DNA of 64,000 bases from Amycolatopsis sp. FDAARGOS 1241 (GTDB lineage Bacteria > Actinomycetota > Actinomycetes > Mycobacteriales > Pseudonocardiaceae), in NCBI RefSeq assembly GCF_016889705.1, contig NZ_CP069526.1:3410001-3474000 (forward strand), in the 5' to 3' direction. The notes under the pieces are model-generated. The model was not told the origin of the DNA. It did no database searches and saw nothing but the letters and a program-made list of their open reading frames with translations. This document shows, in pieces, positions 22,612 through 43,558 of this stretch; positions within the stretch are counted from its first letter, which is position 1, and every line of letters starts with the position of its first letter. A program made the translations under genes and the position numbers.

Positions 22612-24953
<2,342 letters not shown>

Positions 24954-24957
<4 letters not shown>

Positions 24958-25427
24958 GCCGGTGCTCCGTCCGGGTGCTCGGCCGCCCAGCGGATCGAGC
25001 GGATGATGTTCTCGTAGCCGGTGCAGCGGCACAGCTGCCCGGAGATCGCTTCGCGGATCACGGTCTCGCTCGGATCCGGATCGTGGTCGAGCAGCCAGCG
25101 CGCGGTCATCAGCATGCCGGGCGTGCAGAACCCGCACTGGATCCCGTGACACGCCACGAAACCCTGCTGCACCGGGTCGAGCGCGGCGCCCTGGCCGAGG
25201 TCCTCGACCGTGCGCACGCGCTTGCCGTCGGCCATCGCGGCGAGCACCGTGCACGACTTCACCGGCAGGTCGTCGAGCCACACCACGCACGTGCCGCAGT
25301 TGGAGGTGTCGCAGCCCCAGTGGGTGCCGGTGAGCCCGAGGTCGTCGCGCAGGAAGTGCACGAGCAGCAGGCGTGGTTCGACCGTGCGGCGGTGGGTTTC
25401 GCCGTTGACCGTCACCGTGATCTCCAC
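24954..25427 (-). CDS. coxS: CO dehydrogenase iron-sulfur subunit, set 1
   Basis: A 157-residue protein with two [2Fe-2S] sites. The N-terminal plant-type cluster uses CDTSNCGTC plus a later Cys (VKSCTVL), and the C-terminal cluster uses CGFCTPG and CRCTGYENI. It carries electrons from the molybdenum site to the FAD subunit. The GTG start at 25427 overlaps the end of coxM by 16 bases, and the stop overlaps coxL. The M-S-L gene order is the one used by form I CODH operons. Confidence 0.9.
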
Positions 25428-26290
25428 GCGACCGCCCTCTCCTTGGCCCGGTTCAGCGCACGGGTCGTGAGCGTCGCGACGAGGTGTCGCTTGTAGTCCA
25501 CCGGGCCGCGCTGGTCGGCTGCGGGGGAGCAGTGCTCGGCCGCGATGAGCCCCGCCTTCTCGAACCGCTCCGCCGTCGCGCCGCCGCCGCGCAGGAAGTC
25601 CTCGGCCTCGGCCGCGACGAACCGCGGCGCGCCCACCGCGGTGAGCCCGATGCCGGCCTCGGCCACGTCATCACCCTCCAGCACGAGTGACGCGCCGGCG
25701 GCCGCGACCGCCCAGTCGCCCGCGCGGCGGCCGACCTTCGCGTACGCGCTCCCGCCGCCTTCGCGGATCGGCAGCCGCAGCTCCACCAGCAGCTCGGCGG
25801 GTCCGACGACCGTGCTGTAGGGACCGCTGAAAAACTCGCGCACCGGCACCGTTCGCGTGCCCTCCTCGCTGCGGATCACGGCGTTCGCGTGCACGGCGGC
25901 GAACGCGGCGGAGAGGTCCTCCGACGGATCCGCCTGGCACAGTGAGCCGCCGACGGTGCCGCGGTTGCGCACGATCGGATCGGCGATCACGCACTCGGCG
26001 TCGGGCAGGATCGGGAACAGTGCACCGGCTTCGTCCGACGCCAGCAGCTCCGCGTGCCGCACGAGCGCGCCGATGCGCAGCTCGCCGCCGGCGACCCCGA
26101 TACCCGTCAGCTCCGTGAGCTCGTTGACGTCGACGAGCGCCTCCGGCCGGGCCAGCCGCAGCTTCATCATCGGGATCAGGCTGTGCCCGCCCGCGATCAC
26201 GCGGCTTTCCGGGCCGTACTTGGCCAGCAGCGCCAGCGCGTGCTCGACGCTCGAGGCCCGCTCGTACTCGAACTGCGCCGGCACCTGCAT
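25412..26290 (-). CDS. coxM: CO dehydrogenase FAD subunit, set 1
   Basis: A 292-residue protein of the CoxM/FAD_binding_5 family. The two FAD-pyrophosphate loops are AGGHSLIPMMK (about 32-42) and TVGGSLCQADP (about 110-120), separated by the usual NRG linker. The C-terminal domain ends YKRHLVATLTTRAL. ATG at 26290 starts MQVPAQFEYERASS, the expected N terminus of the family. It is the first gene of the leftward operon, facing the rightward set across about 290 bases. Confidence 0.9.
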   Translation of the reverse strand: MQVPAQFEYERASSVEHALALLAKYGPESRVIAGGHSLIPMMKLRLARPEALVDVNELTELTGIGVAGGELRIGALVRHAELLASDEAGALFPILPDAECVIADPIVRNRGTVGGSLCQADPSEDLSAAFAAVHANAVIRSEEGTRTVPVREFFSGPYSTVVGPAELLVELRLPIREGGGSAYAKVGRRAGDWAVAAAGASLVLEGDDVAEAGIGLTAVGAPRFVAAEAEDFLRGGGATAERFEKAGLIAAEHCSPAADQRGPVDYKRHLVATLTTRALNRAKERAVAWRSR

Positions 26291-26579
26291 AACGATCGAT
26301 CGTCCCCGTCGCGCGCGGGCGCCGCAACAGCGGATTAACCGATGGCCTACTGCGCCGTTCGTTGCCGATCCGACCACAGCCACGCCTATCCGGCTTGCGC
26401 AGCGATGGTTGCGCAGTGCCCGGGCTCTGCCTGCTTCCGGTCGGAGTGGCAACGGCCCCGGGGACCGGTTCCGCGCAGGTCCGCGCGGGGTTAAGCAAAG
26501 GGTTAATCCCGGATTGTCCGGCCCGCCGTCCCGGGGGAGCATCACCGCACCTGACCAACGGCGGAAGCAGGTGCGCGTC
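26291..26579. promoter_or_regulatory. Divergent control region between the two cox operons
   Basis: Non-coding except for promoters. It holds the LysR-type element at 26491-26509, a second GGATTAACC half-site at 26332-26340 nearer the leftward coxM, and a direct repeat TTGCGCAG at 26395 and 26409. Both cox operons start from this region, so one regulator could control both. Confidence 0.6.
26491..26509. promoter_or_regulatory. LysR box, cox copy
   Basis: TTAAGCAAAGGGTTAATCC. The same 19 bases occur on the opposite strand at 36437-36455, just before the LysR gene. Two TTAA boxes 8 bases apart give the dyad typical of LysR sites. Confidence 0.7.
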
Positions 26580-26838: not shown

Positions 26839-27701
26839 GTGTACCCGTCCCGGTTCCGCTACGAAGCTCCCCGTTCGCTCGCCGAAGCGCTCGACCTGCT
26901 GCACTCCGGCGGCGACGAGGCCAAGGTACTCGCGGGCGGGCAGAGCCTCGTGCCGCTGATGAAGCTGCGGTTCGCCTCGCCCTCGCTCGTCGTGGACATC
27001 AACAACATCCGCGGCCTGGCCCACCACGAAATCGACGCCGACGGCAACCTCCACGTCGGCGCGCTGTGCCGGCACGCGGATCTCGAACGCTCCGCGCTGC
27101 TCAAGTCCGCGCAGCCGACGATGGCCGCCGCCGCGCCGCTCGTGGCCGACCCGATCGTGCGCAACCGCGGCACGCTCGTCGGCTCGCTGTGCCACGCCGA
27201 CCCGCAGGGCGACTGGGCGTCGGTGGTGCTCGCGCTCGACGGGTCGGTCGTCGCGGAAGGCCCGGCCGGACGGCGGACGATCGCGGCGCGCGATTTCGTG
27301 CTCGGGCCGTTCCAGAACGCGCTCGCGCCCGACGAGATCGCCGTCGAGGCGGTCATCCCCGCACCCCGCGGCACGCCTGCGGGTGGTTACCTCAAGCTGG
27401 AGCGCCGCGTCGGCGACTTCGCGACGGTCGGGGTCGCCGTGGCGGTCGAGACCCGCGCCGGCACGGTCACCCGCGCCGGTATCGCGCTCACGGGCGTGGG
27501 CAGCTCGACGATCGAGGCCACCGACGCGGAACACGCGCTCGTCGGGGGCCCACTGACCCCCGACAGCGTCGCGCACGCCGCCGAACTGGCCGCGGCTGCC
27601 GCGCGCCCGAAGACCGACCACCGTGGCACGGCCGGGTTCAAACGGCACCTGGTGCGCACCTTCGTCGTGCGCGCGCTGGCCGGCACCGGGGAGGAAGCGG
27701 C

Positions 27702-27705
<4 letters not shown>
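26839..27705 (+). CDS. coxM: CO dehydrogenase FAD subunit, set 2
   Basis: A 288-residue CoxM family protein. FAD loops [11 protein letters not shown] and [15 protein letters not shown] are both present. The FAD domain is followed by the C-terminal domain ending [18 protein letters not shown] start after a GAGGAGGGCCGC ribosome site. Its stop overlaps the coxS ATG (ATGA). It passes electrons from the [2Fe-2S] subunit to the respiratory chain. Confidence 0.9.
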
Positions 27706-28220
<515 letters not shown>

Positions 28221-28230
28221 GAGGATCGAC

Positions 28231-30621
28231 GTGTCGCAGGCGTTGGACGAGAACAAGATCGGCGGGGTCGGCGCGAGCCGCAAGCGCGTGGAGGACAACC
28301 GGTTCATCCGCGGCCGGGGGAACTACACCGACGACATCGTGCTGCCCGGCATGCTGCACATGGAGATCCTGCGCAGCCCGCTCGCGCACGCGCGCATCAA
28401 GTCGATCGACGCGAGCCGGGCGTGGGAGATCCCGGGGGTGCGGCTCGTGCTCACCGGCGAGATGGCGGCGACGCGCAACCTCGCGTGGATGCCCACGCTG
28501 TCCTACGACACCCAGGCTGTGCTTGCCACGGACAAGGTTCGCTTCCAGGGCCAGGAAGTCGCGTGCGTCGTCGCCGACGACCCCTACATCGCCAAGGACG
28601 CGTGCGAGGCCATCGACGTCGAGTACGAGCCACTGCCGGTGATCGTGAACCCCGAGCAAGCCGTGGCCGGCGACGCGCCCGTGATCCGCGACGACAAGGC
28701 CGGCCAGACCGAGAACATCGTGTACCGCTGGGAGGTCGGCGACCGCGCCGGCACCGACGCGGCGTTCGAGCGGGCCGACGTGATTTCGAAGCTGCGGCTG
28801 CACTACCCGCGTTCGCACCCCTCGCCCATCGAGTGCTGCGGTTCGGTCGCGGACTTCGACCGCGCGACGCAGAAGCTCACCGTCTACATGACCACGCAGG
28901 CGCCGCACATCATCCGCGCCGCCGTGGCGATGGTGGCCGAGCTGCCCGAGCACCTGATCCGCATCATCTCGCCGGACATCGGCGGCGGGTTCGGCAACAA
29001 GGTGCCCGTGTACCCGGGCTACGTCTGCTCGATCCTGTGCTCCATCCTGCTGGAGCGCCCGGTGAAGTGGATCGAGGACAAGTCCGGCAACCTGATCTCC
29101 ACCGGCTTCGCCCGCGACATGTACCTCGACGGCGAGCTGGCCCTGCGCGCCGACGGCAAGATCCTCGGCGTCCGCATGCACGCCGACGCCGACCACGGCG
29201 CGTTCTTCGCCGACGCGCAGCCCAGCAAGTTCAAGATCGGGTTGCTGCACTCGGCGTTCGCCTGCTACGACGTCCCGGCCGCGCACCTGACCGCGCGCGG
29301 CACGTACAGCAACAAGGCTCCCGGTGGTGTCGCGTACCGCTGCTCGTTCCGCGTCACCGAGGCGATGTTCTTCCAGGAGCGCATGGTCCACCAGGCCGCG
29401 AAGGACCTCGGCCTGGACCCGGCGGAGTTCCGGCGGCGCAACTTCGTGTGCGCCGACGCGTTCCCGTACCGCACGCCGTTCGGGTTCCTCGTCGATTCGG
29501 GTCAGCCCGAAGCGTGCCTCGACGTCGGGCTGCGGGCCGTCGGCTACGAGGACTTCCTGCGGCAGAAGGAAGAAGCGCGCAGCCGCGGGCGCCGCCTCGG
29601 CATCGGGATCTCCACGATGACCGAACCGCTGGGTGCCGGCAACAGCCGCGAGTACGACATCCTGGGCATCAAGATGTTCGACTCCGCCGAGCTGCGCGTG
29701 CACGTGACCGGCAAGGCGCTGCTGCGTGTCGGGGCGAAGAGCCAGGGCCAGGGCCACGAGACCACGTGGGCCCAGATCGTGAGCCACGAGCTGGGCATCC
29801 CGGCCGACGACGTGACGGTGGAGGAAGGCGACACCGACACCGCGCCCTTCGGCATGGGCACCTACGCCTCGCGCAGCACGCCCGTCGCCGGCGCGGCGAT
29901 CTCCATGGTGTCGCGCAAGGTGCGGGCCAAGGCGCGCAGGCTCGCGGCGCACCTGCTCGAAGTGTCCGAAGAGGACCTGGAGTGGGAACTCGGCCGCTTC
30001 CACGTGCGTGGTGCCCCGGCGCGCGGCGTGACCATCCAGGAGTGCGCGATGGCCGCGTATTCGAACATGCCCGACGGCATGGAGCCCGGCCTGGAGAACC
30101 ACGCCTACTACGACCCGCCCAACCTGACCTGGCCGTTCGCCGTCTACATCGTGACGGTCGAGGTCGACCCCGAGACCGGTGTCTGGGACGTGCTGAACAC
30201 GGTCGCGGTCGACGACTGCGGCGTGCGCATCAACCCGATGATCGTCGAGGGGCAGATCATGGGCGGGCTCACCGAGGCCTACGCCATGGCGAACATGCAG
30301 TTCATCACCTTCGACGCCGAGGGCAACTGCGTCGGCTCGAACTACATGGACTACCTGCTGCCCACCGCGTGGGAGACGCCGGGGTTCGAGCTGCACAGCG
30401 AGGTCGTCACACCGTCCCCCCACCACCCGATCGGGGCCAAGGGCATCGGCGAGTGCGCGGCGGTCGGTGGACCGGCGGCGTTCGTGAACGCCGTGCTGGA
30501 CGCGCTCGACGACACCGGCGTGCGCAACATCGACATGCCGCTGCTGCCCGACCGCGTGTGGGAGGCGCTGACGCGGCGCCACGACGTGTCCGGTGCGCCG
30601 CCCGTGCGGACGGACGACTGA
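28231..30621 (+). CDS. coxL: Form I CO dehydrogenase large subunit, set 2
   Basis: A 796-residue catalytic subunit. The loop AYRCSFR at 368-374 (Cys371) is the diagnostic form I motif, holding the Cys that bridges Cu and Mo in characterised enzymes. PDIGGGFGNKVPVYPGY, QGQGHETTWAQIVSHELG and IGAKGIGECAAVG complete the molybdopterin-cytosine-dinucleotide fold. GTG start after TAGGAGGATCGAC. This set, unlike set 1, is followed by maturation and anchoring genes, so it is the better candidate for the main CO oxidase. Confidence 0.94.
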   Translation: MSQALDENKIGGVGASRKRVEDNRFIRGRGNYTDDIVLPGMLHMEILRSPLAHARIKSIDASRAWEIPGVRLVLTGEMAATRNLAWMPTLSYDTQAVLATDKVRFQGQEVACVVADDPYIAKDACEAIDVEYEPLPVIVNPEQAVAGDAPVIRDDKAGQTENIVYRWEVGDRAGTDAAFERADVISKLRLHYPRSHPSPIECCGSVADFDRATQKLTVYMTTQAPHIIRAAVAMVAELPEHLIRIISPDIGGGFGNKVPVYPGYVCSILCSILLERPVKWIEDKSGNLISTGFARDMYLDGELALRADGKILGVRMHADADHGAFFADAQPSKFKIGLLHSAFACYDVPAAHLTARGTYSNKAPGGVAYRCSFRVTEAMFFQERMVHQAAKDLGLDPAEFRRRNFVCADAFPYRTPFGFLVDSGQPEACLDVGLRAVGYEDFLRQKEEARSRGRRLGIGISTMTEPLGAGNSREYDILGIKMFDSAELRVHVTGKALLRVGAKSQGQGHETTWAQIVSHELGIPADDVTVEEGDTDTAPFGMGTYASRSTPVAGAAISMVSRKVRAKARRLAAHLLEVSEEDLEWELGRFHVRGAPARGVTIQECAMAAYSNMPDGMEPGLENHAYYDPPNLTWPFAVYIVTVEVDPETGVWDVLNTVAVDDCGVRINPMIVEGQIMGGLTEAYAMANMQFITFDAEGNCVGSNYMDYLLPTAWETPGFELHSEVVTPSPHHPIGAKGIGECAAVGGPAAFVNAVLDALDDTGVRNIDMPLLPDRVWEALTRRHDVSGAPPVRTDD

Positions 30622-30631
30622 GGTGAGGCCT

Positions 30632-31549
30632 GTGGACGGCTGGGACGTGCTCGAACAGGCAGGCGAACTCGCCCGCCGCGGCGAGGCGTTCGCGCTCGCG
30701 ACCGTGGTGTGGCGGCAGGGCCCGTCGTCGGGCAAGCAGGGTTGCCGCGCGATCATCACGGCCCAAGGCGAGCTGCACGGGTGGATCGGCGGGGCGTGCG
30801 CCGAGCCGACGGTGCTCCGCGAGGCCCGGCAGGCCCTCGTCGAGGGTGAGCCCCGGTTGCTGCTGCTGGGGTCTTCCGACCAGTTCGGCGGGGCGGTGCC
30901 CGAGGGCATGACGGTGGTCCCGATCTCGTGCCAGAGCGAGGGCGCCCTGGAGGTCTACATCGAACCGGTGCAGCCCTCGCCGCACCTCGTGGTGGTCGGG
31001 CGCTCCCCGATGGCGCACACGCTCGTGGAACTGGCGGGGTCCCTCGGCTGGCGCGCGCAGCTCGCCGACGATCCGGCGGCGGCGACCGAGCGGTCGTTCG
31101 TCGTCGTGGCGACGCAGGGCCACGCCGACGAGGACGCGGTGGAGCGGGCGCTGGCCGCACGGCCGGCGTACGTCGGGCTCGTCGGATCGCGCCGGCGCGG
31201 CGCCGCGGTGCTCGGGTACCTCGCCGACCGCGGTGTCGCCGCCGATCAGCTCGCCCGCGTGCAGGTGCCGGCCGGGCTCGACCTCGGCCACGTCTCGCAC
31301 CGGGAGATCGCCGTGGCGATCCTCGCGGAGCTGGTGCGGATCCGGGCGGCGCGCGGGATTCCGCCGGCGGCCGCCGTCACCCACGCCGCCGAGACCACCG
31401 AAGCGGTGGACCCGGTGTGCGGCATGACCGTGGTCGTGACCGACCCGGTGGTCTACGAGGGCCTCGAATACAGCTTCTGCTGCGCCGGGTGCCGCGCCGA
31501 GTTCCTGCGCGACCCGGCAGCCTACGCGAAGAAGGAGAGCCGATGCTGA
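30632..31549 (+). CDS. XdhC family maturation factor with C-terminal YHS domain
   Basis: A 305-residue protein. The XdhC N-terminal domain has FALATVVWRQGPSSGKQGCRAII and WIGGACAEPTV; the Rossmann-like C-terminal XdhC domain has VGRSPMAHTLVELAG and YVGLVGSRRRGAAVL. It is fused to a YHS domain (residues about 262-300: DPVCGMTV through YSFCCAGCRAEF) whose cysteines can bind metal. XdhC proteins insert the sulfurated molybdenum cofactor, and CoxF/CoxI of CODH clusters belong here. The YHS addition could handle copper or another metal, which is inference. The GTG at 30632 has GAGGTGAGG upstream; GTG at 30623 is an alternative. The stop overlaps coxG. Confidence 0.85.
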   Translation: MDGWDVLEQAGELARRGEAFALATVVWRQGPSSGKQGCRAIITAQGELHGWIGGACAEPTVLREARQALVEGEPRLLLLGSSDQFGGAVPEGMTVVPISCQSEGALEVYIEPVQPSPHLVVVGRSPMAHTLVELAGSLGWRAQLADDPAAATERSFVVVATQGHADEDAVERALAARPAYVGLVGSRRRGAAVLGYLADRGVAADQLARVQVPAGLDLGHVSHREIAVAILAELVRIRAARGIPPAAAVTHAAETTEAVDPVCGMTVVVTDPVVYEGLEYSFCCAGCRAEFLRDPAAYAKKESRC

Positions 31550-32127
31550 TCCGCAACCAGTTCGAGGTCGCACAGCCGGTCGACAAGGTCTGGCGCTTCT
31601 TCGACGACGTGCCCGCCGTGGCGACGTGCCTGCCCGGCGCCGAGCTGACCGAGGAGCTCGGTGACGAGCGCTACCGCGGCCGCGTGGGCGTCCGCCTGGG
31701 ACCGGTGTCGCTCAAGTTCGACGGGGTCGCGGCCATCACCTCGCGCGACGAGGAGGCCCGCCGGCTCGTGGTCGACGCGAGCGGTGCCGAAGCGCGCGGC
31801 CGCGGCCAGGCGGCCATGGTCGTGACGGCGACGCTCGCCCGCGCGGATGTGGGCACCCGCGTCGACTTCGAACAGGACCTGCAGGTGTCCGGCGCCGCCG
31901 CGCAGTACGGGCGCGGCATGATCTCCGACGTCTCGTCGGTGCTGATGCGCCAGTTCGCCCTCAACGTGCAGGAGGCCATCGCGCGCGCCGAACGCGGCGA
32001 GCAGCCGGCGGCCCGCCACGCGGCGGCCCCGGCGCGCGGGTTCACCATCGGCCTGCAGGCCACGCTGATGGCGCTCAAACGCGTGTTCCGGCGGTTCTTC
32101 GCGCCCTATCCGAGCACCCCGGCCTGA
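31543..32127 (+). CDS. coxG: CoxG, SRPBCC family CODH membrane anchor
   Basis: A 194-residue SRPBCC/CoxG protein. MLIRNQFEVAQPVDKVWRFF, then DVPAVATCLPGAEL, and KFDGVAAITSRDE are family landmarks. The C-terminal tail (ATLMALKRVFRRFFAPYP) is basic and amphipathic. In carboxidotrophs CoxG is needed to recruit CODH to the cytoplasmic membrane. It overlaps the XdhC-YHS gene by 7 bases and is directly followed by five small membrane-protein genes, supporting a membrane-docking role. Confidence 0.9.
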   Translation: MLIRNQFEVAQPVDKVWRFFDDVPAVATCLPGAELTEELGDERYRGRVGVRLGPVSLKFDGVAAITSRDEEARRLVVDASGAEARGRGQAAMVVTATLARADVGTRVDFEQDLQVSGAAAQYGRGMISDVSSVLMRQFALNVQEAIARAERGEQPAARHAAAPARGFTIGLQATLMALKRVFRRFFAPYPSTPA

Positions 32128-32137
32128 GGAGGCAACC

Positions 32138-32392
32138 GTGGTCCTGTGGTGGATCGGCAACGCCGTGCTGCTGTTCGTGGTGCTGCCCGTCGTCATCGCC
32201 CTGCTCAACCGCGTGCTCGCGGCGCTCGAGCGGATCCGCGCCGCGGCCGACGACGTCCTCAGGGGCGGCGGGCGGCTCGCGGGGCAGCTCGAACCCGTCC
32301 CCGCCGCGCTCGCGCGCACCGACCGCACCATCGGCGAAGTGGCCGTCGGCGCGACCCGCTACGCCGGCAGCGTCGCGAAGCTGCTGGGCTGA
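32138..32392 (+). CDS. Small single-span membrane protein 1 of 5
   Basis: An 84-residue protein with one membrane helix (about 3-25, WWIGNAVLLFVVLPVVIALL) and a polar helical tail containing EPVPAALARTDRTIGEV. GTG start 10 bases after coxG with a GAGGCAACC ribosome site. The PVPAAL motif recurs in the next protein, so the two are probably paralogues. Function unknown; the context suggests part of a CODH membrane assembly. Confidence 0.75.
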   Translation: MVLWWIGNAVLLFVVLPVVIALLNRVLAALERIRAAADDVLRGGGRLAGQLEPVPAALARTDRTIGEVAVGATRYAGSVAKLLG

Positions 32393-32405
32393 AAGGAGTT
32401 CCGCC

Positions 32406-32633
32406 ATGCCCGCCGCCGCCTGGGCCACGCTGGCCGTCAGCGCCGTGATCATCCTGTTCGCCGCCGTCGGGTTGCTGCGCGTCATCCTCCACCTGCGCCA
32501 CGTGCGCCGCACCCTCGGCGGCGTGCTCGGCGGGGTGCGGGTGATCGCCGAACGCACGGCGCCCGTGCCCGCCGCGCTCGGTTCGGTGAACGCGAACCTC
32601 AAGCCGGTGCGCGACTTCTGCGAGTCGGTGTGA
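32406..32633 (+). CDS. Small single-span membrane protein 2 of 5
   Basis: A 75-residue protein with a helix at about 7-28 (LAVSAVIILFAAVGLLRVIL) and a tail reading VIAERTAPVPAALGSVNANL. AAAGGAGTTCCGCC precedes ATG, a strong ribosome site. It is 13 bases after the previous gene. Shares the PVPAAL motif with protein 1 and a similar tail with protein 5. Confidence 0.75.
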   Translation: MPAAAWATLAVSAVIILFAAVGLLRVILHLRHVRRTLGGVLGGVRVIAERTAPVPAALGSVNANLKPVRDFCESV

Positions 32634-32646
32634 AAGGGGGACTGTC

Positions 32647-32889
32647 GTGACGACGGGCTGGATCATCGGGTTCTCGATCGGCGGCACGATCGTCGTGGTC
32701 GTCGTCGCGCTCGTGGTACCGATCCTGGTGCTGGCGCGCTCCATCGGCCGCGCCGCTCCGCTGATCGACGACGAGCTCAAGAAGGCCGAGCGCGACACCG
32801 CGTCGCTCACCGAGCTGCGCACCACCATCGACCACGCCGAGGTCATCGTCGCGGGCCTGCGACGCGGCCGCGCGCGGCTGGGAGGCTGA
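32647..32889 (+). CDS. Small single-span membrane protein 3 of 5
   Basis: An 80-residue protein, one helix at about 4-30 (IIGFSIGGTIVVVVVALVVP) and a charged tail with DDELKKAERDTASLTELR and HAEVIVAGLRRGRARL. GTG start after GAAAGGGGGACTGTC. Three bases separate it from the next gene. No known family recognised. Confidence 0.72.
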   Translation: MTTGWIIGFSIGGTIVVVVVALVVPILVLARSIGRAAPLIDDELKKAERDTASLTELRTTIDHAEVIVAGLRRGRARLGG

Positions 32890-32892
32890 GCC

Positions 32893-33162
32893 ATGTCGAC
32901 GGAAACCCTGTGGTGGATCGCGCTCGCGGCCGGCCTCGTGGTGCTCCTCGCGGTGGTCGCGTTGCTGAGCCTGCTCATCCGCTACGTGCAGGTGATCGAC
33001 CGCCGCGTCGCCGGCATCCGCGACACCCTGCACGGCGCTGAGGCGAACACGGCGGACACCGCGCTCATCCCCGTCACGGCTTCGCGCGTCGACGCCGTGC
33101 TCGCCGAAGGCCTGGAGCACCACCTGTTCCTGGGCCGCGTGCTCGGAAAGGTGAAGTCGTGA
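32893..33162 (+). CDS. Small single-span membrane protein 4 of 5
   Basis: An 89-residue protein with a long helix at about 6-30 (LWWIALAAGLVVLLAVVALL) and a tail containing GIRDTLHGAEANTADTALIP and LAEGLEHHLFLGRVLGKV. The stop overlaps the next GTG (GTGA). The tail aligns loosely with protein 3 (AE-x-x-TA pattern). Confidence 0.72.
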   Translation: MSTETLWWIALAAGLVVLLAVVALLSLLIRYVQVIDRRVAGIRDTLHGAEANTADTALIPVTASRVDAVLAEGLEHHLFLGRVLGKVKS

Positions 33163-33518
33163 CCACCACCCTGGTCGTGCTGACCGTCGTCGAGATCGCC
33201 CTGCTCATCGCCGGCCTCGCGGGCTACCTGTTCTGGGTCGGCAGCCTGCTCGGCCGCGTCGCCACGAACCTCGAGGACTGCGCGGAAACCGTGGCGCGCA
33301 TCAACGACCACGCCGAAGCGATCGTCCCGGGCGTGTCCCACATCAACCGCACCGGAGGCGTGGTGGCCGGTGCGTTGCCGCTGCTGTACGGGATGGCGGA
33401 GGACATCGTCGCCGGGGCGACCTACACGCCGCCCACCCAGGAGCGCGAGCCGGCTCGGCCGGCGTCGGGCACGCGGCGATCGCGGTTGCACCGGGCGGTG
33501 GGGTTCGCGCCGCACTGA
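33159..33518 (+). CDS. Small single-span membrane protein 5 of 5
   Basis: A 119-residue protein, helix at about 5-29 (LVVLTVVEIALLIAGLAGYL), tail ETVARINDHAEAIVPGVSHI then GGVVAGALPLLYGMAEDIV, and a basic C terminus. It overlaps protein 4 by 4 bases and ends 4 bases before the convergent gene at 33523. The tail resembles protein 2, where an Ile/Val-Pro turn is followed by an Asn-containing helix. Confidence 0.75.
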   Translation: MTTTLVVLTVVEIALLIAGLAGYLFWVGSLLGRVATNLEDCAETVARINDHAEAIVPGVSHINRTGGVVAGALPLLYGMAEDIVAGATYTPPTQEREPARPASGTRRSRLHRAVGFAPH

Positions 33519-33522
33519 GTGC

Positions 33523-33912
33523 TCACCCGCTGCGGCCGATCCAGTTCTCGTGCCAGGTGTGCTCGTATTGGGCTTCGTTGCAGCGCGGGCGGTAGACCGC
33601 GGTGAGCTCGCGGACGATCTGCTCGCGGTGCGCCGGCAAGCCGCCCGGGACCTCGTAGGTGCAGATGTGTACCTTCCAGCGCGAGCCTGCCCGCGCGATC
33701 CAGCACGGAGCGCGCGGGTGGCGGAACGGCAGGCGCGCGCAGGACAGGTCGTCGGCGTGGTCGACGTAGATCACGGCGTAGCGATCGGGCCGGCCTTCGG
33801 GATCGGGGCGGTACAGGACGGCGTACACGGCGGGCACGGCCGGCGGCGTCCAGCCGCCCAGCAGGCGCGGGCCGTCGAAGGGATAGCCCGAGGCGGTGCC
33901 GAGGCGGATCAC
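33523..33912 (-). CDS. GIY-YIG-like small protein
   Basis: A 129-residue protein reading VPAVYAVLYR, then YAVIYVDHADDLSCARL and a later REQIVRELTAVYRPRCN. The order Y-A-V near the start, I-Y-V about 20 residues on, an Arg and then a Glu helix follows the GIY-YIG nuclease fold, though the classical Gly of YIG is replaced, so nuclease activity is uncertain. GTG at 33912 overlaps the upstream stop (GTGA). It is the last gene of the leftward coxDE operon; a role in CODH maturation is only guilt by association. Confidence 0.6.
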   Translation of the reverse strand: MIRLGTASGYPFDGPRLLGGWTPPAVPAVYAVLYRPDPEGRPDRYAVIYVDHADDLSCARLPFRHPRAPCWIARAGSRWKVHICTYEVPGGLPAHREQIVRELTAVYRPRCNEAQYEHTWHENWIGRSG

Positions 33913-34169
33913 TCGCTCACGGCCTCGACGCGGCCCACCGGCAGGGGCGGCAGGCCCGCCTCGCGCGCGGCGCGGCGGAACTCCGCGGTGGCCAGGGTGA
34001 TCGCCTTGTCGCGGTCGGGCGCGTCGACGAGCAGCCGCACGCCGTAGCGCGTGGTGCCGATGCCGCTGGCGATGCCGCCCGCCGCGGCGACCGCGTCGGC
34101 GAGGTTCACGATCTCCTCGCGCGTGAACACGCGGTCGCCGTCCGCTTCGATGCCCACACTCCACCGCAT
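33909..34169 (-). CDS. Hypothetical small protein in the coxDE operon
   Basis: An 86-residue protein, MRWSVGIEADGDRVFTREEI to PVGRVEAVSE. The alternation of short strands and two helices (EEIVNLADAVAAAGG and DKAITLATAEFRRAAREAG) suggests a compact alpha/beta ferredoxin-like fold. No recognised motif. It lies 9 bases after coxE and overlaps the next gene by 4, so it is part of this operon. Confidence 0.65.
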   Translation of the reverse strand: MRWSVGIEADGDRVFTREEIVNLADAVAAAGGIASGIGTTRYGVRLLVDAPDRDKAITLATAEFRRAAREAGLPPLPVGRVEAVSE

Positions 34170-34178
34170 CGCGCTCTC

Positions 34179-35279
34179 CTAACCGAGCCGCGGCAGCTCC
34201 GCCGCGAGCTCCTCGAGGCTGCGCAGGTCGTGGCCCGACACCAGCAGGTCCACGTACGGCGCGGCGATCGTCATGCCGAGCGCACCCGGTCCGGTGCCAC
34301 TGTGCGGGTTCGTCCACACCAGCCGGTGGCACAGCCGCGACAGCCGCTCCACCGCCCGCGCCAGCACGTCCGGGTCGCCGCGGTCGAACCCGTCGGAGCA
34401 GATCACCACCACGCCGCCGCGGCACAGGCCCCGCCGGCCGTACGTGTGGACGAACTCGTCCAGCGCGGCCCCGATCTGGGTTCCGCCCTCCCAGTCGACC
34501 ACGGCCGCGGCCGCTCGCGCCAGTGCCTCGTCGGCGTCGCGCGCGGCCAGCCGGTCGGTGATCCGTGTCAGCCGCGTGCCGAAGCAGAACACCTCGACCC
34601 GCGCCGCCGCGCGCCGGGCGGAGTACGCGAACTGCAGCAGGGCGCGGGAGTGGTCGGCCATCGACCCGGACACGTCGAGCACGAGGATCAGGGGCCGCAG
34701 CCGCACCCGCCGCGCCCGCCAGCGCAGCTCGCGCGGTTCACCGAACGTCCGCAGCGAATCGCGCACCGTGCGCCGCAGATCCGGGGCCCGGCCCTGGCGC
34801 GCGGGCCGGGTGCGGCGCGTGCGGCGCTTCGGCGGTGTCAGACGCAGCCGGGCCATGATACGGCGGATCGCGGCGAGCTCTTCGGGGGTGCACGCGCTGA
34901 ACGACTTGCGCTTGAGGGTGTCCACTTCGGACGCCGAGAGCCCGAGCCGCGCGTCCGTCTCCTGCTCCTGACCGGCCCGCTCGGTCTCGGGCATCACGAG
35001 CACGGCGCCGGTCGCCGATTCGGTGAGGATCGTGCGCAGTTCGGCGGGCGGCTCGGCGGCGCCGAGGAAGTAGCGCCGGAACGTCTCGTCGTGGCGGGGG
35101 AGGTCCTCGTGGCGCTTCAGCAGCGTCGTGCGCCCGCCCCAGTACAGGTCGACGAGGTCGGCGGGGTCCAGCGTCGCCATGGCGCGGCAGTAGGTGAGCA
35201 CGTCACCGGAGCCGACGGGCAACCCGGCCTCGCGCAGGGCCCGCGCGAAACCGGTGAGCACCCGTGCGAACTCAGCCAC
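34179..35279 (-). CDS. coxE: CoxE, VWA domain protein
   Basis: A 366-residue VWA-CoxE protein. The MIDAS motif is DVSGSMADHS in the last half (LILVLDVSGSM), followed by a WEGGTQIGAALDEF threonine and CSDGFDRGD. The N-terminal part (FARALREAGLPVGSGDVLTY) is typical of CoxE. With the MoxR-type ATPase CoxD it is thought to complete the CuSMoO2 active site of CODH. GTG start overlaps the coxD stop by 8 bases. Confidence 0.92.
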   Translation of the reverse strand: MAEFARVLTGFARALREAGLPVGSGDVLTYCRAMATLDPADLVDLYWGGRTTLLKRHEDLPRHDETFRRYFLGAAEPPAELRTILTESATGAVLVMPETERAGQEQETDARLGLSASEVDTLKRKSFSACTPEELAAIRRIMARLRLTPPKRRTRRTRPARQGRAPDLRRTVRDSLRTFGEPRELRWRARRVRLRPLILVLDVSGSMADHSRALLQFAYSARRAAARVEVFCFGTRLTRITDRLAARDADEALARAAAAVVDWEGGTQIGAALDEFVHTYGRRGLCRGGVVVICSDGFDRGDPDVLARAVERLSRLCHRLVWTNPHSGTGPGALGMTIAAPYVDLLVSGHDLRSLEELAAELPRLG

Positions 35280-36147
35280 GGGAGGTGAGCTCCGCCAGGT
35301 TGTCCCGCACCACGTCGAGATCGTCGCGGTCTTTCACCACGGCGCCGAGCGTGTCGGCGGCGGCGCGTTCGTCGAGCACCGGTTCGCCGAGGAACCGCAG
35401 CATGCGCGCCCAGTCGATGGTCTCGGCGACCCCGGGCGGCTTCGCGAGGTCGAGCTCCCGCAGCCGGCGCACGGCGGCGACGACCTGGCGCGCCAGCGCC
35501 TCCTCGACACCGGGCTCGCGCACGCGCACGATCTCCACTTCGCGGTCGGCGCCCGGATAGCCGAGCCAGTGGTAGAGGCAGCGGCGCTTGAGCGCGTCGT
35601 GCAGTTCGCGCGTGCGGTTGGAGGTGAGCACGACCAGCGGCGGACTGGGCGCCGCGATCGTGCCGATCTCCGGGATCGTGACCTGGAAGTCCGACAGCAG
35701 CTCCAGCAGGAAGGCCTCGAATTCGTCGTCGGCCCGGTCGATCTCGTCCACGAGCAACACCGCGCCGGCGCCCGCGCGGACGGCGGCCAGCAGCGGCCGT
35801 TCGACGAGGAACTCGGGCCCGAAGAGCTGCTCCACCACGGCGTCGTCGTCGGCGCGGTGGTCCTGCAGCGCGCGGATCCGCAGCAGCTGGCGGGCGTAGT
35901 CCCATTCGTAGAGCGCCTGGGCGGTGTCGATGCCCTCGTAGCACTGCAGCCGGATGAGCCGGCGCTCCAGCACGGTGGCGAGCGTCTTCGCGACCTCGGT
36001 CTTGCCGACGCCGACCTCGCCTTCCAGCAGCACGGGCCGGTGCAGCCGCAGCCCGACCAGCAGCGCCGTGGCGAGGCCGCGGTCGGCGAGGTACCCCCCG
36101 CCCCGCAGGGCGGAGGTGAGGTCCTCGACGGTGTCCGGTTCGCTCAT
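35272..36147 (-). CDS. coxD: CoxD, MoxR-type AAA+ ATPase
   Basis: A 291-residue AAA+ ATPase. The Walker A is LLEGEVGVGKTEVAK (about 40-54), the Walker B AVLLVDEIDRADDEFEA, sensor 1 VVLTSNRTRELHDALKRRC. CoxD of carboxidotrophs is a chaperone-like ATPase needed to load sulfur and copper on the CODH molybdenum site. It is coupled by ATGA to the small gene upstream and by overlap to coxE, forming a leftward maturation operon that converges on the structural operon. Confidence 0.93.
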   Translation of the reverse strand: MSEPDTVEDLTSALRGGGYLADRGLATALLVGLRLHRPVLLEGEVGVGKTEVAKTLATVLERRLIRLQCYEGIDTAQALYEWDYARQLLRIRALQDHRADDDAVVEQLFGPEFLVERPLLAAVRAGAGAVLLVDEIDRADDEFEAFLLELLSDFQVTIPEIGTIAAPSPPLVVLTSNRTRELHDALKRRCLYHWLGYPGADREVEIVRVREPGVEEALARQVVAAVRRLRELDLAKPPGVAETIDWARMLRFLGEPVLDERAAADTLGAVVKDRDDLDVVRDNLAELTSRG

Positions 36148-39109: not shown

Positions 39110-41831
<2,722 letters not shown>

Positions 41832-41835
<4 letters not shown>

Positions 41836-42554
41836 GAGGGCACCTCTTCGGCCATCCGCGAGTAGCGGGTGTGCAGCAGCCCGCGGCACAGGCCCGCGTT
41901 GCCCTCGATGCTCACGCGCACGGCCTTGGCGAACCGCAGCCGGGCGGCGACGTTCTCCGCGGGGATCTCCGCACCGCTGTCCTCGAGCAGCAGCGGAGAG
42001 GCCGCGTCGATGGGCAGCCCCAGTTCGGCCCGCCGGCGCAGCAGGCTCTCGCGTTCGGGAGACTGCGGCACGTCGCCGAGCCGGCCCGCCGACAGCGCGT
42101 CGACCTGCCAGCCCTCGGCCACGAGCCTGCGCACCGCGCGCTCCAGGCACGCCAGGTGCGCCTTGCGGCGGAACGTGAGCCGCAGTTCGTCGAGCTCGCC
42201 GGTGGCCTGCGCGGGGAACGACCCGCTGAACCCGGACTCCGCCGCCACGCCCGCGTTGATCTCCTCGGCGGCGAAGTGGTCCTCCAGCACGATGTCGACC
42301 GTGTCGACGCTCGGCAGCGCCAGCACCGCGTCGTGCGCGTCGGCCACCATCAGGTAGGCGAAGTTGGGCGCGCAGAAGTACGTCGGCAGCCGCAGCCGCA
42401 CCGACACGGCGTGGCCGCGGTCGTCGTGCAGGCGGACCTGGACACCGGCCACGAAGCCGAGGTCCGTGATCGGCTCGTCGAGCTCGGGGTCGACGACCGT
42501 GGCGAGCGCGCGCCACACCCGGCTGGCCAGAGTTTCGGCCGTGGCGGCGGTCAT
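41832..42554 (-). CDS. DUF59/MIP18-type iron-sulfur assembly-like protein of the prm operon
   Basis: A 240-residue protein. The N-terminal domain (RALATVVDPELDEPITDLGF, then VSVRLRLPTYFCAPNFAYLM) has the MIP18/PaaD fold that assists iron-sulfur or metal insertion. The C-terminal part (AARLRFAKAVRVSIEGNAGL with a closing GLLHTRYSRMAEE) is not assignable. Homologous frames accompany prm/mim operons in other actinobacteria, so a role in metal loading of the hydroxylase or reductase is a fair guess. Overlaps both neighbours by 4 bases. Confidence 0.8.
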
Positions 42555-43558
42555 GCCGGAACCTTGGCGGCCGTCCCGGCGGTGACCTCGGCGGGCACCT
42601 CGATGTCGTAGAGCTCGGCGGCGTTGAGGCCGAGAATCTTCTTCTTCGCCTCGGTGGTCAGCGTGCCGTATTCGGCCTGCATGTCCTCGGGGATCTGGAA
42701 GTCCACGAACTTCTCGACGAGCCACTTCGGCTGCCAGATCGCGTAGTCGCTGGCGAAGGTGATGCGGCTCTCGTCGAGCCAGTACAGCAGCTCGCCGATG
42801 ATCTGCGCGAAGTAGCGCGGGCGCGTGTGGATGAACGGCATCGCGACCGCGAGTCCACCGTAGACGTTCGGCTCCTGCGTCGCGATCCAGCAGAAGTCCT
42901 CCAGCCGCGGCAAGCCCACGTGCTCGATGATGAAGTTCAGGTTCGGGAACGCGCTGGCCGCATCGTCGACGTCGGCCACGTCGAACGCGTCACGGTTGAG
43001 CGGGTAAATTGTCGGTCCCTTGTGGACGTGGATGTTGCGGATCCCCAGCTGTTCGCACTTCTCGAGGTACCGGTAGGCCCACGGGTCCGAGAGCTTCCAG
43101 CCCTTCGACTCACCCTTCCACTCGGCCGTGTAGAGCTTCACGCCCTTGAGGTTCCACCGCTGCGCGAGTGCTTCGAGCTTGGCCAGGCCGGCCTCGCCGT
43201 CACGCGGGTCGAACGCCCCGTTGACGATGAACTTGCCGGGGTTGTTCTCCGCGACCGCGCCGTCCTGCTCGGTGGTGTTGAACCCGTTGACGTAGAAGTC
43301 GGTGAGGTAGGTCGGCTGGAAGATGGCCTTGTCCACGTAGCCCGCCGTGAACAAGTCCTCGAGCAGCGTTTGCTCGGAGTACTTCCCGAACTTCTCCAGC
43401 GACCACAGCCATTCGGCCGGGCTGAGGTTGCGGTGGTAGTCGTAGAAGCACTCGATGAAGCCCTTGCCGTACCGGTTGGCCTGGTTGGCGGGACTGCCGT
43501 CCCAGAAGTGCACGTGGCTGTCGACGATGAAGTAACTCTCGCCGTCCTTGCGATACAT
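42551..43558 (-). CDS. Amidohydrolase-2 family protein of the prm operon
   Basis: A 335-residue TIM-barrel metal hydrolase. DSHVHFWDG is the first metal site, NIHVHKGPT the second His, FIIEHVG the third and FASDYAIW the catalytic Asp. It is a regular member of prm/mim operons, where its reaction is unclear; it may act on a ring or acyl product, or help the enzyme mature. It is preceded by a strong hairpin at 43593-43625 and coupled by ATGA to the DUF59 gene. Confidence 0.85.
   Translation of the reverse strand: MYRKDGESYFIVDSHVHFWDGSPANQANRYGKGFIECFYDYHRNLSPAEWLWSLEKFGKYSEQTLLEDLFTAGYVDKAIFQPTYLTDFYVNGFNTTEQDGAVAENNPGKFIVNGAFDPRDGEAGLAKLEALAQRWNLKGVKLYTAEWKGESKGWKLSDPWAYRYLEKCEQLGIRNIHVHKGPTIYPLNRDAFDVADVDDAASAFPNLNFIIEHVGLPRLEDFCWIATQEPNVYGGLAVAMPFIHTRPRYFAQIIGELLYWLDESRITFASDYAIWQPKWLVEKFVDFQIPEDMQAEYGTLTTEAKKKILGLNAAELYDIEVPAEVTAGTAAKVPA

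Follow-up and report, generated by a model that had tools for sequence, protein, structure and literature searches.

Five small membrane proteins encoded beside one clade of form I CO dehydrogenases and a divergent [NiFe]-hydrogenase lineage: candidate subunits of a membrane adaptor

Introduction

How do soluble, cofactor-complete trace-gas enzymes reach the quinone pool of the membrane? Carbon monoxide dehydrogenase (CODH) and [NiFe]-hydrogenase are unrelated enzymes with a common need to pass their electrons into the respiratory chain. This recurring question is raised by a run of five small genes, here called P1 to P5, that lie in a CODH operon of Amycolatopsis sp. FDAARGOS 1241, within a stretch of 64,000 nucleotides (contig NZ_CP069526.1, positions 3,410,001 to 3,474,000 of the forward strand; hereafter the window, whose own numbering we use) of a 9.8-Mb genome. 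An earlier note, made from the letters of the window, had proposed that the five products form a hetero-oligomeric membrane platform that anchors CODH or passes its electrons onward. We report here that the five genes are kept as an ordered set, that this set accompanies one clade of form I CoxL, and that relatives of all five also adjoin a divergent lineage of [NiFe]-hydrogenase. Because relatives of the same five genes adjoin both CODH and hydrogen-oxidising enzymes, we favour, with moderate confidence, a shared function in which P1–P5 would together make up a single hetero-oligomeric adaptor in the membrane, on which soluble trace-gas enzymes dock and through which they reach menaquinone.

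For CODH, the accessible part of one source (PMC13240472, which cites Kropp et al. 2025) describes CoxG as a menaquinone-binding protein, so the earlier note's remark that the passage of electrons from CODH to quinone is ill-defined no longer holds as far as CoxG is concerned. For hydrogenases, the accessible part of PMC7174314 describes a membrane-associated group 1h enzyme that has no anchor and whose partner is unknown, and that of PMC6883350 reports finding no subunit of the cytochrome b type encoded in the operons for Huc and Hhy of mycobacteria.

Results

P1–P5 are genes for single-span membrane proteins

The five frames follow one another on the forward strand directly behind coxG, in the positions and order that the earlier note had given for them (75–119 residues; Table 1). 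They are packed as tightly as it had said, with gaps of no more than 13 bases or with overlap: along the path from coxG through P1, P2, P3 and P4 to P5, the intergenic distances are 10, 13, 13, 3 and -4 bases. Each product has one hydrophobic segment near its N terminus (maximum Kyte–Doolittle hydropathy over 19 residues, 2.3–3.0), which bears out the single N-terminal helix per protein that had been read from the letters. No lysine or arginine precedes this segment in any of the five, and one to four follow within 15 residues behind it. Because of this distribution of charges, the positive-inside rule makes an N-out/C-in topology likely for all five.

None of the five matched Pfam or NCBIfam at curated cut-offs (the matches of P1–P4 all fell far below). 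They are real genes: orthologues occur in 76–80 of 80 loci found by a search seeded with P5 and the ratio of nonsynonymous to synonymous substitution rates (dN/dS) against three relatives is 0.15–0.61. Over these loci the mean identity to the window proteins, taken from the best tblastn segment, was 70, 63, 62, 66 and 66% for P1 to P5, compared with 59% for CoxG and 85% for CoxL. In a profile search of the PDB, P5 hit designed barrels of antiparallel coiled coils (best E 3e-17), matches that we took to reflect a compositional heptad repeat and not homology; the same kind of search with P4 returned nothing better than E 0.57.

The five genes are kept as an ordered set

Homologues of P5 numbered 4603 at E<=0.01, and a P4 profile built mainly from hydrogenase-type sequences found 1120 relatives at E<=1e-5 among 8000 candidates scored. 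Among the 120 matches listed for each search, those that bear an organism name are actinobacterial except for one 'soil metagenome' entry, and the named homologues were mostly annotated as 'hypothetical protein'. Scanning one genome per species with the P5 alignment gave 177 confirmed places, and our counts refer to the best 80 loci among them. Their hosts include Amycolatopsis, Pseudonocardia, Thermocrispum, Nocardioides, Frankia, Micromonosporaceae, Streptosporangiaceae, Acidimicrobiia and Nitriliruptoraceae. In Pseudonocardia dioxanivorans CB1190 the set stands on NC_015312.1 (locus L084; L and G numbers are our handles for loci and genomes).

In all 80 loci the genes that were found lie on the same strand in the order coxG-P1-P2-P3-P4-P5. 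The complete set is present in 76; the other four (L022, L046, L056 and L082) start inside the set at a contig end, with P5 alone visible in L082. The P4 frame runs into that of P5 in 69 of 79 loci. CoxG is encoded in 72 of the 80, and of the eight loci that lack it six start at or inside the P set. The remaining two, L083 and L086, carry complete P1–P5 sets without a coxG match, each preceded by a gene for a related protein of 163–168 residues; the metagenome-assembled genomes (MAGs) from which they come have the standard cox-linked set as well (L032 and L048).

Longer single-span helical proteins of about 190–250 residues are encoded near some P sets (L178:5759-7875, L186:12923-15300, L174:8412-8984 and L175:3653-4228). 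Some of them distantly match P5, and they are possibly further subunits.

The set is tied to one clade of form I CoxL

Loci seeded with P5 are uninformative about coxL genes that lack P5, so we relied for co-occurrence on 396 actinobacterial genomes sampled without bias, among them that of the window, and searched these with the P5 profile and with a coxL model. P5 matched in 29 genomes, strongly in 8 (E<1e-47) and weakly in 21 (best hits 1e-28 to 1e-7). The coxL model matched in 57 genomes, yielding 46 canonical hits (1161–1479 bits), 13 divergent hits (1057–1121 bits) and one fragment. In each of the eight genomes with a strong P5, this gene lay 2.6–2.7 kb away from a coxL of the divergent clade. 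This P-linked clade takes in 11 of the 13 divergent coxL hits, six of them placed in a tree and five (L160–L163 and L165) assigned by score and motif. The five P genes are adjacent in nine of these 11 members, namely the eight with strong P5 matches and G188 (L174); in G284, coxG and P1–P5 are on a short contig of their own (L175). Neither of the two remaining divergent hits (L192 and L193) belongs to the clade, and no P gene is near them. Within the genus, 7 of 60 genomes have a coxL of the clade, and they are exactly the seven that have a strong P5.

The P-linked CoxL proteins form one clade in trees of both 37 rows (Shimodaira–Hasegawa-like approximate likelihood-ratio test 100) and 12 rows (support 100/100). 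In a motif survey of 118 CoxL-like frames, some of them near-duplicates, the active-site motif read AYRCSFR in 71 of the 72 P-linked frames and AYRCSL in the other (L026). The remaining frames comprised 27 with AYACSFR, five with AYRCSFR (two of which are the clade members L190 and L191), one with AYSCSFR and 13 with the form II motif AYRGAGR. AYRCSFR also occurs outside the P-linked clade (L255–L257), so it is not exclusive to it. Because an AYxCSFR-type motif, with its copper-ligand cysteine, is present, the P-linked CoxL is predicted to belong to an active molybdenum–copper (Mo-Cu) CODH.

Outside the clade the set was missing from 25 of 26 coxL loci. None was positive among six loci that comprise the two divergent non-clade hits and four canonical ones (L192–L197), and one was positive among 20 of the 46 canonical hits, most of them among the highest-scoring. 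This exception, L256 (5118-11203), comes from a distant actinobacterial family and is arranged coxG-P3-P4-P5-P1-P2-coxS-coxL. Because its CoxL groups with canonical enzymes (support 98/97), its sequence marks L256 as a separate pairing of the module with CODH. Thus the co-occurrence with form I coxL that the earlier note had suggested looking for holds for one clade and, in 25 of the 26 loci examined, not outside it; for that clade the association is well supported.

Relatives of all five genes adjoin a divergent [NiFe]-hydrogenase

The weak P5 matches turned out to be more than noise. At five loci (L097, L176, L178, L186 and L187) they have genes for [NiFe]-hydrogenase as neighbours, joined at L187 by genes for NifU-like, HycI-type and TPR proteins. 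Hidden Markov models (HMMs) of P1–P5 trained solely on CODH-linked sets found a counterpart of each of the five proteins in every one of these loci. The earlier note had taken the genes for a cox-specific accessory set, which does not agree with these neighbourhoods; they rule out a cox-only function.

The large subunit of this hydrogenase has 5aa5 (HofG) as its best PDB match (470 bits). Searching the 396 genomes with it gave 30 hits that share its divergent lineage (50–100% identity) and 37 that belong to the canonical group 1h type (38–43%); canonical hits scored 379–499 bits against the query and those of its own lineage 535–1518, apart from one 289-residue fragment at 355. We examined 28 loci from the 30 divergent hits, without the fragment in G258; G475:66377 lies only partly in L186. 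At least two P families were present in 20 of the 28 and all five in 11. In L200, L201, L202 and L203 the order is hydS-P3-P4-P5-P1-P2-hydL, which places the set between the genes for the small and large subunits, and L212, whose contig starts at P3, reads P3-P4-P5-P1-P2-hydL. By comparison, P relatives were found in none of 20 canonical group 1h loci (of the 37 hits, for the most part the best-scoring ones). Some of the stretches in these control sets, for group 1h and for coxL, are shorter than 20 kb.

The widened HMMs used in this survey include relatives from L097–L190, so L176–L187 are not independent tests; among the 20 independent loci L198–L217, the HMMs trained on CODH-linked sets detected P genes in 12 by themselves. 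CoxG had no phmmer match at E<=1e-8 in 13 hydrogenase loci scanned, a scan that lay outside L198–L217. Groups 1l and 1m are candidates for the class of the P-linked hydrogenase; in the accessible part of PMC9561532, all 13 MAGs that carry group 1m are Actinobacteriota.

P1–P5 fall into two families of paralogues

The earlier note had suspected duplications, pairing P2 with P5 and, from a shared PVPAAL motif, P1 with P2. Duplication and the first pairing stand. With widened profiles that include the hydrogenase-linked relatives, hhalign gave probabilities of 99.2% for P2 and P5 and 95.7–98.1% among P1, P3 and P4, as against 73.7% for P2 and P1 and 1.1% for P5 and P4. The pairing of P1 with P2 has no support beyond that 73.7%; the widened profiles fit a beta subfamily of P2 and P5 and an alpha subfamily of P1, P3 and P4. 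A tree of 146 P proteins separates the two families at 100/99. Within it P4 (97/99), P3 (77/86) and P1 (72/83) form one group each, mixing CODH-linked and hydrogenase-linked members with one change of label per group. Because these groups mix partners, the split into subunits looks older than the choice of partner, and it likely predates the pairing with either enzyme.

Conserved residues and candidate contacts

In the family alignments of P1–P5, no cysteine reaches 60% conservation and a single histidine does, in P4, where it belongs to a Glu-x-x-x-His element present in 28 of 32 aligned family members. With no conserved cysteine and one conserved histidine, P1–P5 are unlikely to carry electrons through bound metals. 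The earlier note's suggestion that they pass electrons onward themselves is therefore not supported, and we discount an electron relay through the P proteins, which have no conserved cysteine or histidine pairs.

CoxM, CoxS, CoxL, CoxG, CoxD and CoxE of the window have no transmembrane segment, nor do the hydrogenase subunits of L176, L187, L200 and L203. Apart from the P genes, three frames in the screened stretches exceeded the transmembrane threshold of 1.8: one in L176 for a HycI-type protease (1.82), one in L187 that lies past the set (1.83) and one in L256 that looks antisense (1.99).

P5 differs between partners. In the alignment, CODH-linked P5 proteins carry a GALPLLY stretch and hydrogenase-linked ones do not. 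A C-terminal tail with RR[ST]R[LMF] is present in 68 of 78 full-length P5 proteins of the main clade (of the other ten, the five listed read RR[ST]RQ) and in none of 21 other P5 proteins, three of which come from basal CODH loci of the clade. On these sequence patterns, the GALPLLY stretch and the C-terminal tail are candidates for the contact with CODH.

The CODH operon around the set

The P genes of the window stand between coxM-coxS-coxL, an XdhC-family gene and coxG on one side and the convergent coxE and coxD on the other (Table 1). The earlier note had the set converging on coxDE; the convergence is there, with two further small conserved genes, X1 and X2, separating P5 from coxE and coxD. 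In some loci, for example of Pseudonocardia, no match to the XdhC-family gene was found between coxL and coxG. The C terminus of the window's CoxG is conserved, basic and amphipathic-looking.

Table 1. Positions in the window of P1–P5 and of the surrounding CODH genes
Feature	Position	Strand	Description
P1	32138..32392	+	84 aa, single-span membrane protein, alpha subfamily (P1/P3/P4); orthologue in 76/80 P5-seeded loci
P2	32406..32633	+	75 aa, single-span membrane protein, beta subfamily (P2/P5); orthologue in 78/80 loci
P3	32647..32889	+	80 aa, single-span membrane protein, alpha subfamily; orthologue in 78/80 loci
P4	32893..33162	+	89 aa, single-span, alpha subfamily; ExxxH element (E72, H76); orthologue in 79/80 loci
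P5	33159..33518	+	119 aa, single-span, beta subfamily; CODH-type GALPLLYGMAE stretch and C-terminal RRSR tail
coxM	26839..27705	+	
coxS	27702..28220	+	
coxL	28231..30621	+	divergent form I clade, AYRCSFR motif; TIGR02416 1099.1 bits (cut-off 991.15)
XdhC-family maturation factor	30593..31549	+	NF045664, 112 bits, below its cut-off of 350
coxG	31543..32127	+	194 aa; PF06240 57.4 bits (gathering 22.2)
X1	33523..33912	-	small conserved protein on the convergent coxDE side, no Pfam match; 64/80 P5-seeded loci
X2	33909..34169	-	small conserved protein on the convergent coxDE side, no Pfam match; 57/80 P5-seeded loci
coxE	34179..35279	-	VWA_CoxE, PF05762, E=2e-55
coxD	35272..36147	-	AAA ATPase, PF07728

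A second, canonical form I coxM-S-L lies on the reverse strand at 22612-26320, back to back with the P-linked genes; its CoxL scores 1291.6 bits against the coxL model and reads AYACSFR. This pairing of canonical and P-linked coxM-S-L recurs in Amycolatopsis, Pseudonocardia, Thermocrispum and other loci. Farther along, at 39110-42725 on the reverse strand, are GroEL-like, alcohol dehydrogenase-like and DUF59-like genes that we take, from their translations, to resemble the tail of a propane monooxygenase cluster.

Discussion

A membrane adaptor for soluble trace-gas enzymes

In the adaptor reading, each P protein would contribute one N-terminal transmembrane helix and a cytosolic tail of about 50–95 residues, probably an amphipathic helix, and the resulting bundle, with its helical head, would dock a soluble trace-gas dehydrogenase at the membrane's cytosolic side and open a path for quinone between the enzyme and the menaquinone pool. 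With CODH, the adaptor would act together with CoxG as the menaquinone carrier, probably through the CODH-type C-terminal region of P5; with the divergent hydrogenase it would act by itself, much as the unrelated HucM stalk serves Huc. What we infer here has three parts: that the five proteins form one complex, that the complex binds the enzymes and that it handles quinone. The hetero-oligomeric platform of the earlier note fits the evidence, since five distinct paralogues have been kept as orthologous lines.

Several findings weigh against this reading. CODH and group 1h hydrogenases occur elsewhere with none of these genes close by, which means that neither needs the module as a rule. Even within the divergent hydrogenase lineage, P genes are missing from 8 of 28 loci, three of which sit on contigs shorter than 5 kb, and another five show P4 and P5 only. 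In one member of the CoxL clade, G262, the set is split, with P1 and P2 at the coxL locus (L190) and P3–P5 elsewhere (L173). Some P sets lie near neither enzyme within their stretch (L098, L099, L183, L083 and L086). The family structure is also less clear-cut in other comparisons: with CODH-linked sequences only, hhalign joins P3 and P4 clearly (97.5%), leaving P1–P4 at 28.1%, P1–P3 at 27.4% and P2–P5 at 7.2%, and the tree, built on few columns and with several long branches, does not cleanly separate P2 from P5.

Two of the sets found near neither enzyme have neighbours of another kind. In L183 (1960-4906) P1–P5 lie near what we take, from the sequence, to be genes like those for the large and small subunits of RuBisCO, and in L099 (12360-17488) near presumed aldolase-like and phosphoribulokinase-like genes. 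Such Calvin-cycle-like neighbours would fit atmospheric chemosynthesis.

A stronger form of the proposal, which we hold only tentatively, would make P1–P5 a dedicated plug-in quinone port, a heteropentamer that, as a pore or stalk in the membrane, draws menaquinone out and supplies it to whichever soluble trace-gas dehydrogenase is docked. Such a port would stem from two ancient families of paralogues and would have been taken into use with Mo-Cu CODH at least twice and with one [NiFe]-hydrogenase lineage. The Glu-x-x-x-His element of P4 would sit at the quinone head-group, and the C-terminal tail of P5 would be the docking peptide for CODH.

What else could the set do?

The adaptor reading has to be weighed against simpler roles. 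P1–P5 might tether the enzyme and do nothing more, leaving the quinone to CoxG (or, for the hydrogenase, to another carrier). CoxG is indeed described as menaquinone-binding in the accessible part of PMC13240472, and it is encoded in 72 of the 80 P-linked loci, six of the eight others being cut at or inside the set; one or two anchors would satisfy a tether, and P1–P5 carry no conserved cofactor ligands. Tethering would, however, make five different, separately conserved subunits unnecessary, and the module is present in the 13 scanned hydrogenase loci although no CoxG match was found there. A pure anchor therefore seems to us rather unlikely. That the set instead provides a membrane scaffold for maturation or protection of the enzyme, and has no part in electron delivery, we regard as improbable. 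Maturation genes do adjoin the set, both in the window (xdhC, coxE and coxD) and near the hydrogenase (a maturation protease, NifU-like and TPR genes), yet four hydrogenase loci place it between the structural genes hydS and hydL. The maturation routes of CODH and hydrogenase are unrelated, so a membrane maturation factor shared by both is unlikely.

Short single-span coiled-coil proteins are common, and P1–P5 might be ordinary small membrane proteins or genomic hitch-hikers with no link to an enzyme. The DUF948 architecture, an N-terminal transmembrane helix followed by an amphipathic helix, is one that they share with such small membrane coiled-coil proteins. DUF948 (PF06103) matched 5 of 32 P5 relatives at E<=0.01 (best 0.0015) and not the P5 of the window; among the window's five proteins, and with E values up to 10 allowed, it matched only P3, at 13.4 bits against a gathering threshold of 37.2. 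The set keeps its order in 80 of 80 loci, is tied to one clade of coxL, recurs next to a hydrogenase that is unrelated to CODH and is missing from all 20 canonical group 1h loci examined, which leaves this explanation with very little probability.

Relation to known systems

Coupling partners of soluble trace-gas dehydrogenases are already known as a kind; the P families would be a new addition to them, if they are partners of the quinone-coupling type. CoxG belongs to the same operon and to the same presumed step from CODH to the membrane; it differs in having no transmembrane segment, and P1–P5, which sit directly downstream of it, are unrelated to it (hhalign probability <=0.1%). The closest parallel in function would be HucM, the stalk subunit of Huc in Mycobacterium smegmatis, described in the accessible part of PMC10017518 as a single protein that forms a peripherally membrane-associated tetramer: a helical, cofactor-free link from a soluble trace-gas enzyme without a membrane subunit to the menaquinone pool. 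A stalk of the HucM type would be a coiled-coil tube whose hydrophobic lumen carries menaquinone. P1–P5 are by contrast five different proteins with predicted transmembrane helices, and no HucM chain was among the PDB profile matches, as judged from the best 60 of 257 for P5 and 9 of 9 for P4, the two proteins searched. HhyE and HucE, putative iron-sulfur proteins, are likewise operon-encoded partners proposed to join cytochrome b-less hydrogenases to the respiratory chain; they carry CxxC or Rieske-type motifs (both points from the accessible part of PMC6883350), whereas P1–P5 have no conserved cysteine. The cytochrome b-type subunit of classical uptake hydrogenases, with several transmembrane helices and conserved heme-ligating histidines, is also a membrane partner of a [NiFe]-hydrogenase, from which the P proteins differ in being single-span and in having no conserved histidine pair in the five family alignments. 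A literature search that left most subscription papers outside its reach turned up no account of a set like this next to cox genes or hydrogenase genes.

A module that recurs beside CODH and beside one hydrogenase lineage gives the question of how soluble trace-gas enzymes gain access to quinone a concrete set of genes that can be deleted.

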